Source of the DNA: a virus
Length of the DNA: 34,431 bases
Virus record (IMG/VR): IMGVR_UViG_3300042346_000524
Coordinates: 1-34,431 of that record
Reading direction: 5' to 3' (one strand)
The notes under the pieces are model-generated. The model searched no databases, was not told the DNA's origin, and saw only the letters and a list, made by a program, of their open reading frames with translations. Shown in pieces: positions 3,885 through 33,229 of this stretch (the stretch's first letter is position 1; each line of letters begins with the position of its first letter). Made by a program: the position numbers and the translations under genes.

Positions 3885-3910
3885 CAAATATATAAATTAA
3901 TTTTGAATAA
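3885..3910 (-). promoter_or_regulatory. Promoter P2, identical 26-bp block to P1
   Basis: The -7 box TATATTTG is the complement of 3885-3892, and the whole 26-nt block is identical to 1197-1222. No TTG is present at the -33 position here, so the conserved upstream TTATTCAAAAT element may replace it. The Sak3 ATG lies 28 nt downstream of the -7 box. Confidence 0.65.
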
Positions 3911-7503: not shown

Positions 7504-7644
7504 TTATTTCTCTTTAACAAATTTAACTCCGTCGATTTCGACAATTTCAATTTTTCCAGCTTTAGCCAACTTGTAAACCCACGTTGGCGACTTGCCTATT
7601 TTCTTTGCGTAATTGCTTACTTTTATTAAATCTAGTGTTTGCAT
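7504..7644 (-). CDS. Excisionase/MerR-like small HTH protein, 46 aa
   Basis: ATG at 7644, TAA at 7504-7506. The sequence SNYAKKIGKSPTWVYKLAK (residues 10-28) followed by GKIEIVEIDGVKFV has the layout of the minimal HTH_17/excisionase fold: helix, turn, recognition helix, then a beta wing. Such proteins bind DNA as recombination directionality factors or small transcription regulators. No integrase is present, so regulation is more likely than excision. It overlaps the upstream 80-aa gene by 13 nt. Confidence 0.6.
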   Translation of the reverse strand: MQTLDLIKVSNYAKKIGKSPTWVYKLAKAGKIEIVEIDGVKFVKEK

Positions 7645-9086: not shown

Positions 9087-9112
9087 CAAATATATAAACT
9101 TATTTTGAATAA
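9087..9112 (-). promoter_or_regulatory. Promoter P3, near-identical 26-bp block (24/26 to P1)
   Basis: The -7 box TATATTTG is the complement of 9087-9094. The upstream element TTATTCAAAAT is conserved as in P1 and P2, while TTG at -33 is absent. The 134-aa gene starts 43 nt downstream of the -7 box. It directly follows the late-operon terminator. Confidence 0.65.
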
Positions 9113-26906: not shown

Positions 26907-27641
26907 TTACATTAATTTATTTAATTTGTCCCAGTTAAATTGTGATTTTACATTAACTTGCTCGGGGCTTTCAGCTTTGGGACTTGTAACTGTCGGCATC
27001 ATTGCAAGGTCAACTAATCGAGAATTTAAGTATTTTAATTTCATTTCCAAATTATAAAGACGTTCATCCGTGCCTTTACCATTTATCAATGATTTTGTGA
27101 CTATTTCAATTTCTTTTGCGTATTTTTCTACTAATTGGATTTTATTTTCACTTTTTCCAATTGCTAATACTTCCGTTTCTTCATTCGCGCCAAAGGTAAC
27201 CGCAGAACCCTCGAATAACTTAACTTCAAATATCTCGAAATTGTCGCCTACTTTTCGGATTTGGTCGGTTAAATATTGATAGCCGATTGAATGTTCTTTA
27301 ATTATTCCCTCTTCATAATCTCTTAAAGCATCCTCGCCCTTTGTTGATGTTGATAATTTTCCAACTGCAAACAAACCTAAATCGTCTTCCTCTAATCTAA
27401 TGAATTTACCAATTTGATGTTGCCAATCATGGTAACGTAAAAAGGCTATCTTTCTATTACTAGCACTATCCACACCCCTATCTAACAAACTACGCTTAAA
27501 CGCACCCTTAATGATAATATCGTTATCACTATCTAACACCCCGAATTTGCTTAAATACATAGCAACTTCACGCTTACCGAGTGATAAATCTTTAATCTCA
27601 GTTATGCTTTTAGTCTTGTATTGAGTAAAATTTTTATTCAT
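26907..27641 (-). CDS. HK97-family prohead protease, 244 aa
   Basis: Start taken at ATG 27641. An in-frame TTG at 27662 would add seven codons, but it lies inside the -7 promoter box. The Ser/His catalytic pattern is visible: H71 in LRYHDWQHQIGKF and S118 in IIKEHSIGYQYL, with KLFEGSAVTFGAN after it. Cleaves scaffold domain from capsid subunits during maturation. The C-terminal region (about 160-230) is a helical, coiled-coil-like extension that may target the capsid. Confidence 0.88.
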   Translation of the reverse strand: MNKNFTQYKTKSITEIKDLSLGKREVAMYLSKFGVLDSDNDIIIKGAFKRSLLDRGVDSASNRKIAFLRYHDWQHQIGKFIRLEEDDLGLFAVGKLSTSTKGEDALRDYEEGIIKEHSIGYQYLTDQIRKVGDNFEIFEVKLFEGSAVTFGANEETEVLAIGKSENKIQLVEKYAKEIEIVTKSLINGKGTDERLYNLEMKLKYLNSRLVDLAMMPTVTSPKAESPEQVNVKSQFNWDKLNKLM

Positions 27642-27645
27642 TAAA

Positions 27646-27690
27646 TACGGTTTTATACGCAAATTTACGTAAAAATACGTAATTTTACCA
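27646..27690. repeat. Five TAC(G/C) units at exact 10-bp spacing in divergent gap
   Basis: TACGG at 27646, TACGC at 27656, TACGT at 27666, TACGT at 27676 and TACCA at 27686: five units spaced exactly 10 bp apart, all on one face of the helix. The gap between the protease ATG (27641) and portal ATG (27708) is 66 bp, and this array fills most of it. It overlaps the protease promoter. Likely a protein-binding array that controls divergent transcription. Confidence 0.7.
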
Positions 27691-27692
27691 AA
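27660..27692 (-). promoter_or_regulatory. Promoter for the protease/capsid operon (TTTG-N21-TAAATTTG)
   Basis: On the minus strand TTTG (complement of 27689-27692) lies 21 nt upstream of TAAATTTG (complement of 27660-27667). The ATTACG/TACGTAAATTTG context closely resembles the ParB-operon promoter at 33151-33182. The protease ATG at 27641 lies about 18 nt after the -7 box. Confidence 0.65.
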
Positions 27693-27707
27693 ACATTAAA
27701 AAAAAAT

Positions 27708-29084
27708 ATGAATAATAATTTTTGGACTTCGGTTTTTGGCGCAACAAGTGGGAGAAATGATAACTTGTTAAAAATGATACAACGCACAAGTAACCAATTC
27801 TGGGGGAATACTAAGCCCCAATGGGTAGATACAAGTAAACCATACGATTTATACATTACTATTCCCGAGCTTAGGGCAGTAATTAATAAACGTGCTATAA
27901 TGATGAGTAGTGGCAAACCCGTACTTTGTGACAAAGAGGGTAACATTATTGAAAGCCATTGGATGTTAGATTTAATCAACAATCCAAATCCCACACAAAG
28001 CTGGTCGGATGTTGTATATTCGTTGGCTGTAAACGATGGCTTATTTAATAATTCATTTGCTTACTGCCCGAAAAGAAGCTTTGATATTCGTAATTTAATT
28101 ATGCCTTTACCAGCTAATCAAGTTAAAATCGTTGGTACAGGAAAATTTCTTAACCAAATCGACAAAGATGGATTGATTAAGAATTTCGAGTTTTGGTATG
28201 ATAGCCAAAAAATGGAAAAAATCGAGCTGCAAGATATGGTGTATATGAACACCCCCGACGGTATTAATTTAATCAATTCGATAAATAGGATTGATACATT
28301 GAAATATCCACTATCCAATATCATGGCAACCTACAACAAGCGTAATGTTATACTTGAAAATATGGGTGCAATCGGTATTTTGTCAAGTAAGAAATCGGAT
28401 ATGGGTGGAACTATCCCAATGACACCCGAGGAAAAAGACGAAATTCGCAAAGATTGGGTGAGCCGAAATAAAGATAAATTAGTGCTTACAGAAGCAGACA
28501 TCCAATGGACACCTATGTCCTACCCTACTAGGGATTTAATGTTATTCGAGGAGTTGAACGAGGATAAAATGGCTTTAATTGATGCTTATGGATTAAACAA
28601 ATACGTGTTTTCAAACGCAAATGATAGTATTATGAGCAACGTTCAACAAGGTATGCGCATGGCTTATCAAGATGCTATTATTCCAGAGGTTACCCAAATG
28701 TACCAAACTATGTCGCAACAGCTAGGTTTAACGGCTCAAGGCTTGTATTTAAAACCTGATTTTTCGCATATTCCTGTATTGCAAGAGGATGAAGCCAGTA
28801 AATCTGCTGTTGTTTTATCGTTGTTTCAAAGCGGTGTAATTGATAGCTCTGAAGCACGTAATGAGTTAGGCTACCCAATTAAGGAGGAGCAAGGCGCACC
28901 AGTTCAATCGTTAAATGGTGCACAAGTAACTTCAATGGTACAAGTAGCTCAAGCAATTAGCGAGGGTATTTTAAGCCGAGAAAGTGCGACGGAAATTTTA
29001 ATTATTTCGTTTGGTATTTCGAGGGAACAAGCAACTGCCATAACTAGCACGATTGAAATTAAACCACCAGTACCGCAGTTTTAA
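27708..29084 (+). CDS. Portal protein, HK97/PF04860-like, inverted
   Basis: 458 aa; the only plus-strand gene. The pattern fits portal proteins: YITIPELRAVINKRAIMMSS (wing/clip start), LINNPNPTQSWSDVVYSLA, FYDSQ-type loop region, LENMGAIGILSSKKSDMGG, EELNEDKMALIDAYGLNK and QQGMRMAYQDAIIPEVTQMY. The portal forms the dodecameric DNA channel at the capsid vertex and docks terminase and tail. It is divergent from the protease and convergent with TerL: both stop codons share TTAA at 29081-29084. Codon use and base composition look like the neighbours. Confidence 0.88.
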   Translation: MNNNFWTSVFGATSGRNDNLLKMIQRTSNQFWGNTKPQWVDTSKPYDLYITIPELRAVINKRAIMMSSGKPVLCDKEGNIIESHWMLDLINNPNPTQSWSDVVYSLAVNDGLFNNSFAYCPKRSFDIRNLIMPLPANQVKIVGTGKFLNQIDKDGLIKNFEFWYDSQKMEKIELQDMVYMNTPDGINLINSINRIDTLKYPLSNIMATYNKRNVILENMGAIGILSSKKSDMGGTIPMTPEEKDEIRKDWVSRNKDKLVLTEADIQWTPMSYPTRDLMLFEELNEDKMALIDAYGLNKYVFSNANDSIMSNVQQGMRMAYQDAIIPEVTQMYQTMSQQLGLTAQGLYLKPDFSHIPVLQEDEASKSAVVLSLFQSGVIDSSEARNELGYPIKEEQGAPVQSLNGAQVTSMVQVAQAISEGILSRESATEILIISFGISREQATAITSTIEIKPPVPQF

Positions 29085-30433: not shown

Positions 30434-30800
30434 TTAGCAAATTCTTAATTTCATCAGTAGTTAACCCAGATAAATCAATGTTGGTTTGTTTTTGTTCGAT
30501 ATGTTGCATTGACAACCTCCTTAATTCTTCTTGATTTCCTATCAACTTCATTAAAGCCATTTGCAAAGCTGGGCTATTTGATTTGTACCATTTTGACCGC
30601 ATAGACACTTTTAATTCGGTGCGGTTTGTTTCTAACAATTCTTTTAGCTCGTTGTATTCGTTGGAATTAATATCGAAAAATCTATAAAAAGTTGTTTTAT
30701 CACATGGCAAAAAAGCAACTATATCCTCAATAAAAAATAGCTTATGTTTTACAATTACTTCCTTTGCCTGTTCGTATATTTTTTTTTTATCGTATGCCAT
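30426..30800 (-). CDS. terS: Terminase small subunit
   Basis: 124 aa. N-terminal HTH-like region (EQAKEVIVKHKLFFIEDIVA, FLPCDKTTFYRFFD), then helical segment NRTELKVSMRSKWYKSNSPA with LQMALMKLIGNQEELRRLSM, typical of small terminase central oligomerisation regions, and a short C-terminal tail (NIDLSGLTTDEIKNLLNE) that could contact TerL. Starts one base before the stop of the TET/JBP-like gene (position 30800), so all are in one transcript. Confidence 0.8.
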   Translation of the reverse strand: MAYDKKKIYEQAKEVIVKHKLFFIEDIVAFLPCDKTTFYRFFDINSNEYNELKELLETNRTELKVSMRSKWYKSNSPALQMALMKLIGNQEELRRLSMQHIEQKQTNIDLSGLTTDEIKNLLNE

Positions 30801-31600
30801 TATTTCAATCCTTTAAATGCTTTAAGTGGGTAAAATACAAGTGAGTTTCTATAACCACCCTCAAAAGTTGGTATGATAGGCGTAACTCCGTGTACGTTTC
30901 TCCACGCTGGGTAAACTAAAATAGAATTATCTTGCTGTCCGATTGTAGCGTTGTAGTCAGGTATATGTAAATCGCCACCTTTTGAATTATGTTTTTTACA
31001 AATGATTACATTGACTGCACCAATTATATTACCAGCATCTCTATGAAAGTTAGCTGAAATATTAAAGTTTGAAATTGAACTTGTAAATAAGTTTCCAAAT
31101 TTCCATTTATCTGGTACCTCTTTAAATAATTCAATTTGTTGTTCGTATTGTTTTGGCAATAATTCTTTTATTAATAACTCACTTTCTTTAGCTAATAATA
31201 ACATTGCTTTGATAAATGTTTGTGCTGACTTTACTGAATGAACAGAACTTCTATTTTTATATTCCCTTCTCATTAATGCTTTGGGTGGTACAGAACCAAT
31301 AATTGTTGAATACTGTTCTACATCAATTGCGTTAGCTTCATCTTTTGTTTTACCCATTTGTAAAGCTCTTAACTTACCAGCTCTTGCCATTAATGATTTA
31401 GGCACATTCTTACTTCTGAATTCAGCATTTGCCAAATCCGCAAGCTTACACATCTTATCTGGCATCTTAGTTAAGTAAAAACCGATAGGCTCGCCATTTG
31501 CATAAAAAACACAATCCTCAGTTATATTTGGCTCTATGTATTCACACGCTTCGCCAATTTTACGGTTATGCTTTACCTCAATTAAATCAATTCGTTTCAT
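30800..31600 (-). CDS. TET/JBP-like 2-oxoglutarate/Fe(II) dioxygenase, 266 aa
   Basis: The C-terminal half shows the Fe(II)/2OG site: NFHRDAGN with H186 and D188 (HxD), then GGDLHIPDYNATIGQ, distal H237 in RNVHGVTP, and R251 in YRNSLVFY as 2OG-binding arginine, 14 residues later. The order and the GG-x-LHIP and YRNSLVFYPLK blocks resemble the Tet_JBP family, whose members oxidise thymine or 5-methylcytosine in DNA. The N-terminal part (1-165) is helical, with a basic region RREYKNRSSVHS. Located between FkbM methyltransferase and terminase. Substrate unproven; other 2OG dioxygenase roles possible. Confidence 0.75.
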   Translation of the reverse strand: MKRIDLIEVKHNRKIGEACEYIEPNITEDCVFYANGEPIGFYLTKMPDKMCKLADLANAEFRSKNVPKSLMARAGKLRALQMGKTKDEANAIDVEQYSTIIGSVPPKALMRREYKNRSSVHSVKSAQTFIKAMLLLAKESELLIKELLPKQYEQQIELFKEVPDKWKFGNLFTSSISNFNISANFHRDAGNIIGAVNVIICKKHNSKGGDLHIPDYNATIGQQDNSILVYPAWRNVHGVTPIIPTFEGGYRNSLVFYPLKAFKGLK

Positions 31601-31603
31601 ATA

Positions 31604-32302
31604 TTATTTATTAAATGCGAAAACATTTGTACATGCAGGAAACCAAGACTTTTGCCAAACATCATAATCACGACTTTTAAATTTACCAGTATTACCAACA
31701 TCCTTTAAATCGTTATATTCCTTTTTATGTTTTTCAATTATATTCCAAAAACGTGGTAAGCTATCATCAATATCAAAACTCCACTCATAAACTAATTTAT
31801 TAAATACCTTATTTGTATTTTCAAGTATTAACATTTCTGCTCCTTCAATATCCATTTTGCAACAATCAAAGTTTTTAGCTTCAGCATCAAAATTTAAACA
31901 AGATACTTTTAAACCTTTGTTATTCCATTTTTTTACTATTGAATTTCTCCATACGTTGCCATTGTTACCTATGAATAAAATTATTTCTTTAGTATCGTTA
32001 TGAACTAATGCAGCTTGTTTTATTGTAGCTGTAAATCCATTTAAATCTAAATTCTTTTTAATCATTTCGCAGTTAAAAGGGTCAGGTTCATAAACTGTAA
32101 CTTTCGCACCTTTTGAACAAGCTAATAAAGTAAAAGCGCCAACATTGCCACCGCAATCCATCCAAGTTTCACCGCTTTTAATTGTCATTGATTTTTTCAA
32201 ATATACTTCGTTTCCTAAAACCTCTTCAAAAGTTTTAAGGTCGGACATGCCTTCTCTGTGGTAAAATTTAATTCCTTTTATTTCAGATTTATATATTTTC
32301 AT
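31604..32302 (-). CDS. FkbM-family SAM-dependent methyltransferase, 232 aa
   Basis: SAM-binding motif I WMDCGGNVGAFTLL (48-61), motif II acidic VYEPDP (70-75), and FDCCKMDIEGAEMLIL (145-160) match FkbM methyltransferases, usually O-methyltransferases on sugars or hydroxyls. In this position, its start overlapping the ParB-like stop (ATGA) and 3 nt before the dioxygenase, it could methylate a hydroxyl that the dioxygenase makes on a DNA base (inference). Alternative: methylation of a glycan or protein. Confidence 0.8.
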   Translation of the reverse strand: MKIYKSEIKGIKFYHREGMSDLKTFEEVLGNEVYLKKSMTIKSGETWMDCGGNVGAFTLLACSKGAKVTVYEPDPFNCEMIKKNLDLNGFTATIKQAALVHNDTKEIILFIGNNGNVWRNSIVKKWNNKGLKVSCLNFDAEAKNFDCCKMDIEGAEMLILENTNKVFNKLVYEWSFDIDDSLPRFWNIIEKHKKEYNDLKDVGNTGKFKSRDYDVWQKSWFPACTNVFAFNK

Positions 32303-32877
32303 ATTTTTTCCTTTTCAGCTTTTAAATATTCCATTATCATCCCCCCTACATATGCTTGTTTATCTCTCCAGAATTTTACAAGTTCGTAGGCTTCCTCATA
32401 ATGTTCAGCTTCAAATTCAATTTGGATAGCTTTTTTAACTCCATTTGTCATACCTTCTAATAGGCCTGAAACAGCAGCACCATCTAAAAACGAACAACCT
32501 ACATCAGACGCAAAAGTAGGAACTCCCAAACCCCAGCCGCCCAACAAATCTACATCCCATTCATTCGATAACATTTCCCAATCCCATTCTCCACCGCTAA
32601 CATTATCCTTGATTATAAATTGCCTTTGTTCATCCTCTGTAAGGTCGTCCGCTTTGATTATTGGCACTTCTTTTAATCCAGCTTCAATACAGGCTTTTAA
32701 ACGCATATTTCCGCCTAACACAACCATATCAGCGTTAACAACTATTGGACGAATTTCCAACATTTTAGGAAACTCTTTAATCGAGTTTACAAGCTTTACA
32801 AATTTATCATCCTTAATTATTCTCGGATTGTTCGGGTTTTTCTTAACCGTTTTAATATCTACTAATTTAAAATCCAT
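32299..32877 (-). CDS. ParB/sulfiredoxin-fold nuclease-like protein, 192 aa
   Basis: N-terminal ParB-like domain (about 1-95): VKKNPNNPRIIKDDKFVKLV, RPIVVNADMVVLGGNMRLKA and LTEDEQRQFIIKDNVSGG, the VLGGNxR block being the hallmark. The second half has the EWDVDLLGGWGLGVPTF block and a helical end (YELVKFWRDKQAYVGGMIME) common in phage ParB-like proteins. These often sit with DNA modification or terminase genes. First large gene of the modification/packaging operon, overlapping the 59-aa membrane protein by 16 nt. Confidence 0.85.
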   Translation of the reverse strand: MDFKLVDIKTVKKNPNNPRIIKDDKFVKLVNSIKEFPKMLEIRPIVVNADMVVLGGNMRLKACIEAGLKEVPIIKADDLTEDEQRQFIIKDNVSGGEWDWEMLSNEWDVDLLGGWGLGVPTFASDVGCSFLDGAAVSGLLEGMTNGVKKAIQIEFEAEHYEEAYELVKFWRDKQAYVGGMIMEYLKAEKEKI

Positions 32878-33127: not shown

Positions 33128-33229
33128 CTAACAATTAAAACAAAACGTTACAAATTTACGTAATTTATGCTTTATAACCAAATAAGTTAGTAAACACTTA
33201 AATAGTGCGTAGTACATTAATACTCTCAT
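33128..33229 (-). CDS. Possible micro-ORF, 33 aa
   Basis: ATG at 33229 overlaps the TGA of the previous micro-ORF (ATGA) and ends TAG at 33128-33130. Sequence starts MRVLMYYALFKCLLTYLVIK, a single hydrophobic stretch followed by a basic tail (KHKLRKFVTFCF). It overlaps the ParB-operon promoter, so it may be only an open frame, but the ATGA coupling is notable. Confidence 0.35.
   Translation of the reverse strand: MRVLMYYALFKCLLTYLVIKHKLRKFVTFCFNC
33151..33182 (-). promoter_or_regulatory. Promoter for the ParB/FkbM/TET-JBP/terminase operon (TTTG-N20-TAAATTTG)
   Basis: On the minus strand TTTG (complement of 33179-33182) is 20 nt upstream of TAAATTTG (complement of 33151-33158), fitting the Bacteroidetes consensus. 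The ATTACGTAAATTTG context, with palindromic TTACGTAA at 33156-33163, closely matches the promoter in the portal/protease gap, so both late operons may share a regulator. Confidence 0.7.

Follow-up and report, generated by a model that had tools for sequence, protein, structure and literature searches.

A helically phased TACG array as the probable core of a curved bidirectional promoter between phage portal and prohead protease genes

We analysed a 34,431-nucleotide stretch of viral DNA (IMG/VR record IMGVR_UViG_3300042346_000524, positions 1 to 34,431), referred to here as the window, in which an array of TAC(G/C) units in strict 10-bp phase occupies positions 27646 to 27689 (plus strand) between two divergent head genes. 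At this array there is probably an intrinsically curved sigma-A promoter, with the array at its core, that works in both directions and would serve the protease/capsid operon on one side and the portal gene on the other, a reading that draws on the observed sequence, its conservation, its spacing statistics and its calculated curvature. Divergent -7 boxes placed one or two helical turns apart, together with phased A/T tracts, would explain the phasing more simply than an array of bound HTH proteins does.

The 66-bp gap (27642 to 27707) runs between the ATG of the prohead protease gene at 27641 on the minus strand and that of the portal gene at 27708 on the plus strand, so that it lies between divergent genes, as bidirectional promoters can, and it is the region for which we predict two-way transcription from sequence and curvature from wedge models. 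The protease gene (26907 to 27641, minus strand; Pfam Peptidase_S78, 4.6e-21) heads the capsid operon, and the portal gene (27708 to 29084; Pfam Phage_portal, 9e-30) is the sole credible plus-strand gene seen. The portal and terminase large-subunit genes are convergent, with ends overlapping by 4 bp (29081 to 29084), which leaves the portal gene alone on its strand.

Read directly, the array consists of TACG at 27646, 27656, 27666 and 27676 and TACC at 27686. The longest in-phase run of TACG at period 10 in the whole window is therefore 4, a length never reached in 200 dinucleotide shuffles of the window, where the longest run was 1 in 148 shuffles, 2 in 51 and 3 in a single one. At all other periods from 5 to 25 the TACG runs are no longer than 2, and when period-10 runs of any tetramer with at least two G/C were counted the shuffle maximum was 3. 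The spaced pair TACG-N6-TACG has 5 matches in the window against 0.5 expected, a count reached in 0 of 100 shuffles. The TACG phasing is real and non-random, and both the direct reading and the shuffles bear out the claim of the first-pass annotation that five TAC(G/C) units stand at exact one-turn steps in the 66-bp gap.

The consensus of sigma-A promoters in Bacteroidota differs from the E. coli type. It comprises a -33 TTTG and a -7 TAnnTTTG with its G at -5 (PMC6847099, PMC9723704). The protease strand of the gap carries both parts in this arrangement, a -7 TAnnTTTG with a -33 TTTG about 19-21 bp upstream: the -7 box TAAATTTG, assigned to the promoter of the protease/capsid operon (27660 to 27667, minus strand), matches TAnnTTTG exactly, with its T-12 at 27667, and a -33-like element recognised by its sequence, TTTTGG (27688 to 27693, minus strand), lies 21 bp upstream of it. 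Taking this T as -12, the protease-side start site is predicted near 27655, with a leader of about 14 nt, and the first two units of the array (27646 and 27656) are positioned at this site or downstream of it. The TAAATTTG box keeps its place, -26 relative to the ATG, in each of clades A, B and D; the TTTTGG element is kept in clade D and absent in clade B. On the portal side, the -7-like box TAATTTTA (27680 to 27687, plus strand) has one mismatch from TAnnTTTG, and its counterpart in clade C is the exact TATTTTTG. This box is weaker than the protease box, as it does not have the nearly invariant G and no -33 element was recognised for it, so the portal transcript might start elsewhere; the missing consensus G is the weakest point of the bidirectional model. 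Between the two boxes is a 12-bp spacer (27668 to 27679), equal to 2 bp plus one 10-bp turn, which holds TACG units. An earlier proposal that the gap holds two divergent promoters is thus supported at the level of sequence prediction, and the TAC units do flank and overlap a genuine -7 box, TAAATTTG, read on the minus strand from 27667 to 27660. An Rfam search of the window for structured RNA gave no match.

Within the same region lies a 20-bp near-palindrome, a possible operator, with GTAAAAATAC as its left half and GTAATTTTAC as its right half (27669 to 27688), in which 9 of 10 pairs match and which fills the spacer between -33 and -7 on the protease strand. The window contains three 20-bp palindromes of 9/10 pairs, one of them with this sequence, and the phage genome contains a single copy, the next best site having 4 mismatches. 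We compared the gap across forty-odd viral contigs in which it is present; named phage records, with portal identity below 60%, were too distant for gap comparison. The gap is unchanged in clade A, the clade of the window itself, the leader differs in the neighbouring clades B and D, and in B the upstream part differs as well. The palindrome is identical in clades A, B and D; in clade D it extends to 22 bp, GGTAAAAWTACGTAWTTTTACC, with perfect outer symmetry, and clade C has a perfect 16-bp palindrome, AAAAATACGTATTTTT. Between clades A and B, 29 of 29 core bases are identical, while identity at the 4-fold sites of the protease gene is 57%. The first-pass annotation had tied its array to the 10-bp spacing being kept in close relatives. 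That much stands for the three-unit core at 27666, 27676 and 27686, which is present in clades A and B, has one C/G change at unit 27666 in clade D and takes an altered form in clade C (unit 27666 is TACC in both C and D), but it fails for the units at 27646 and 27656, neither of which survives in clades B, C or D.

In distant relatives, whose proteases are 50-70% identical, gaps carry back-to-back -7 boxes in the form CAAAnnTA-N2-TAnnTTTG, as in CAAATTTATCTAAATTTG (L098) and CAAATTTACGTAATTTTG (L126), and the gaps with such facing boxes are otherwise unrecognisable. In clade C, TATTTTTG faces TATTTTTA with CG in between. Of the 22 gap clusters, 7 have such a pair at spacing 2 exactly and 11 have it when one mismatch is allowed; the shuffles give expectations of 0.00 and 0.05 (maxima 0 and 2). 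With one mismatch allowed, spacing 12 is confined among these 22 clusters to clades A, B and D, and 8 clusters have neither spacing. The gap has candidate promoter elements on both strands, the protease box exact and the portal box with one mismatch, and exact pairs exist in 7 of the 22 clusters of relatives. Because these relatives use spacing 2 and clades A, B and D use 12, the gap can be described as a facing-box promoter with one extra 10-bp turn, and this extra turn would in turn account for both the 10-bp array and the 20-bp palindrome of clades A, B and D. Facing -7 boxes as a general habit were rejected, since spacing 2 was not enriched in 61 Flavobacterium genomes (188 vs 177 per spacing); the spacing rule therefore appears specific to the phage portal/protease pair and not to such DNA generally.

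No other 60-bp segment of the window is as curved as the gap, which reaches 109 and 107 degrees against a window mean of 28 (sd 15) in calculations with a 16-dinucleotide wedge model and an AA-wedge model, the parameters of both being checked on A-tract controls only, phased and unphased. This value was reached in 0 of 300 shuffles, and the gap has the predicted bend of intrinsically curved DNA. Predicted curvature is likewise high in clades A, B, C and D and in L015, L035, L042, L050, L089, L098 and L126; it is high in the majority of relatives whose boxes are paired, and gaps without such pairs are mostly not highly curved (among them L038, L044, L054, L074 and L086). Paired boxes placed in random flanks averaged 46 +- 17 degrees, so the bend of the gap is greater than the boxes alone give; it might nevertheless simply follow from A/T-rich boxes standing in phase.

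Under the bidirectional promoter reading, TAAATTTG (27667-27660, minus strand) would drive the protease/capsid operon and the weaker TAATTTTA (27680-27687, plus strand) would drive the portal gene, each TACGTA being the joint TA-CG-TA at which -7-type boxes face. Since the boxes of other relatives are 2 bp apart, their starts lie 10 bp, or one turn, apart; the group of this phage would have gained an extra 10-bp box-like unit between the boxes, making the spacer 12 bp and the distance between starts 20 bp, or two turns, and this unit would be the origin of the TACG repeat. Spacing by integral turns would set the two boxes on the same helical face and bring the A/T tracts into phase, giving the predicted bend of about 109 degrees. 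Polymerase would bind in one orientation at a time, with either possible, and as it presumably cannot occupy both, transcription of the portal gene and of the capsid operon would compete at one site, where the stronger protease-side box may favour capsid over portal. The start sites, the competition, the expression ratio and any role of the bend are what we infer from these features.

Bacterial bidirectional promoters have reportedly been studied by Warman et al. 2021. They are a known bacterial class (PMC12825309, PMC10268837), which the phage gap would resemble in being a short symmetric sequence with putative elements facing both ways. In E. coli the start sites are mostly 18 bp apart, with 10 and 23 also common, the -10 elements are shared or overlapping, about one quarter of the promoters lie between divergent genes, and occupancy in one orientation blocks the other (PMC10268837, PMC12825309). 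The phage -7 boxes, in contrast, do not overlap and are 2 or 12 bp apart, and the calculated distance between start sites, about 37 bp here and about 27 bp in the spacing-2 relatives, falls outside the 10-23 bp range of E. coli. The protease strand, with its exact -7 box and TTTTGG at -33, is like a Bacteroidota sigma-A promoter, but it departs from one in the palindrome that occupies its spacer and in the presence, within 12 bp, of another -7-like box pointing the opposite way. The A/T tracts at steps of about 10 bp and the high predicted bend are shared with intrinsically curved promoters that carry phased A-tracts; in those the bend lies upstream of one promoter, whereas in the phage it coincides with two facing -7 boxes. 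No examples of bidirectional promoters in Bacteroidota were found in the literature searched.

Other explanations would put a protein, or the bend itself, at the centre. A DNA-binding protein of phage or host might sit as a dimer on the palindrome of 20-22 bp that occupies the -33/-7 spacer, repressing or activating the late genes, with the third half-site at 27666 allowing a second dimer one turn away. We regard this as possible, at clearly lower probability than the promoter reading, with which it is compatible; it is also close to the idea of the first-pass annotation. The palindrome fills the spacer exactly, remains identical in clades A, B and D despite diverged flanks and 4-fold sites, and in clade D has perfect outer symmetry, and because this 20-bp identity exceeds what two -7 boxes need, a bound protein is possible. 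Against it, the symmetry follows in part from the facing -7 boxes, the single copy in the genome is unlike the operator of a regulon, and no candidate binder follows the site. The two small HTH proteins that had been put forward do not track with the palindrome: homologues of the 72-aa HTH protein (1276-1494) occur in G014 and G015, both without the site, and it was not found in G010, a 31-kb contig with the site, while the 46-aa Cox-like protein (7504-7644) was found only in clade A contigs, several of the records being partial. Both candidates become less likely on these records; a simple cooperative 10-bp array of small phage HTH proteins was rejected, given one operator copy and no co-occurrence of regulator and site. 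The terminase small subunit, TerS, does not track either, because members of clade A have exchanged it and still have the same palindrome. There are TerS proteins that bind repeats in helical phase, and the site is surrounded by head and packaging genes, yet a pac site bound by TerS is scarcely credible and was rejected on the same ground, the TerS of clade A varying (a 26-residue match in L003 vs 97% over 124 aa in L005) beneath an identical palindrome. It is also improbable that the phasing is a mere by-product of curvature, with A/T tracts every 10 bp serving nucleoid-protein binding or another purpose in place of a bidirectional promoter: this would suit a gap whose predicted bend is the largest in the window and persists in all four clades despite their differing TACG units, but leaves unexplained why distant relatives have exact -7 consensus pairs that face each other across 2 bp.

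Matches elsewhere bring in a possible host regulator. The exact palindrome has 11 matches in 84,980 species genomes, 5 of them in Flavobacterium and 4 of those at the nas nitrate reductase promoter, and the phage site might therefore copy a host operator, so that a host regulator, most simply a NarL-type response regulator, would act on the phage promoter; we consider this unlikely. Triple TACGTA arrays occur in 32 of 150 Flavobacterium genomes (0 with the reversed control), and among the matches listed 22 of 75 TACGTA pairs have period 10, the next best period having 6. These sites lie at nas and between a response regulator gene and a nitrate-type MFS transporter gene, and array and response regulator go together (14/22 vs 7/39 genomes, p = 6e-4), although both genome size and the presence of nas (p = 1e-4) are confounders of this association. 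One genome, G031, has nas, the array and the regulator and no Crp/Fnr gene, which favours a response regulator as the host binder and led us to reject Crp/Fnr. The phage shares with the nas array a 10-bp TACGTA grammar and 16 identical bp (TACGTATTTTTACGTA), and the TACGTA-N4-TACGTA dyad of the Flavobacterium operator is present at 27666-27681. The dyad is incomplete in clades C and D, where the second full TACGTA is missing, and in clades A and B that second copy arises at the joint with the -7 box. The dyad centre is an A/T linker in the Flavobacterium array and TACGTA in the phage palindrome. Moreover, triple TACGTA arrays in 11 other viral contigs have no shared promoter context of this kind, and a search of 397 Flavobacteriaceae genomes, run without a positive control, found neither the capsid nor integrated relatives. 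That the Flavobacterium nas regulator binds the phage site is a guess.

The Flavobacterium arrays are of interest in themselves. Conserved TACGTA-N4-TACGTA arrays were seen at nitrate-assimilation promoters in L155, L156, L163, L164, L182 and L187-L215; at nas promoters the third unit is shifted by one base in some genomes and the spacing of the first dyad is constant. The predicted curvature of the nas array is 58-93 degrees, and a TATTTTTG box abuts it in 9 of 22 nas loci. This 10-bp TACGTA operator of Flavobacterium nitrate assimilation is apparently undescribed so far, a search of the literature on TACGTA in Bacteroidetes or on Flavobacterium nitrate regulators having found nothing relevant. 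Two further motifs recur in this genus. Between an rmuC-like gene, assigned by eye, and a lipoprotein-like gene that diverges from it, many Flavobacterium genomes have a conserved TACGTAAAAGTACGCAATAATACGTA (L189, L190, L192, L193, L197, L203, L213, L214). The motif CAAAAATAGTTAGTTTTG, which has facing -7 boxes at spacing 2, is found at G019:C31:165525-165542 and in about a dozen further Flavobacterium genomes among those listed, and it may mark one conserved host two-way promoter.

Several other sites were seen in the window. Promoters of the early/replication half at 1197-1204, 3885-3892 and 9087-9094 (minus strand) have ATTCAAAATTAATTTATATATTTG or a near copy ending in a -7 box, and two of these early promoters may be two-way with spacing 5, because an opposing TAATTTTG is present. 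A second copy of TTACGTAAATTTG at 33151-33163 (minus strand), with TTTGG 20 bp upstream, stands ahead of a ParB-like/methyltransferase/terminase cluster and is kept in G002, G003, G004 and G005. The region 30800-32877 (minus strand) holds three genes in a row, one like a Tet/JBP-type 2OG-Fe(II) oxygenase (with a further match to a phage family of queuine tRNA-ribosyltransferases), one methyltransferase-like and one ParB-like; this row, a possible DNA base-modification cassette, is partly missing in close relatives.

Two-way promoters are already known, and what looks new is the exact spacing by one helical turn across related phages. A much more far-reaching view, which we think very unlikely as a whole, is that Bacteroidota phages have a class of self-curving bidirectional promoters in which -7 boxes set whole helical turns apart (10 or 20 bp) fix the ratio of portal to capsid, and that the added turn also let a nitrate-type regulator of the host bind there, so that capsid output would depend on the nitrogen state of the host. 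A phage head is built with few copies of portal and a great many of capsid. If one two-way promoter made polymerase choose a direction, the output of portal and capsid would be coupled without any regulator, and the spacing rule, exact in diverged relatives, offers a clean handle on helical phasing and curvature in Bacteroidota promoters.
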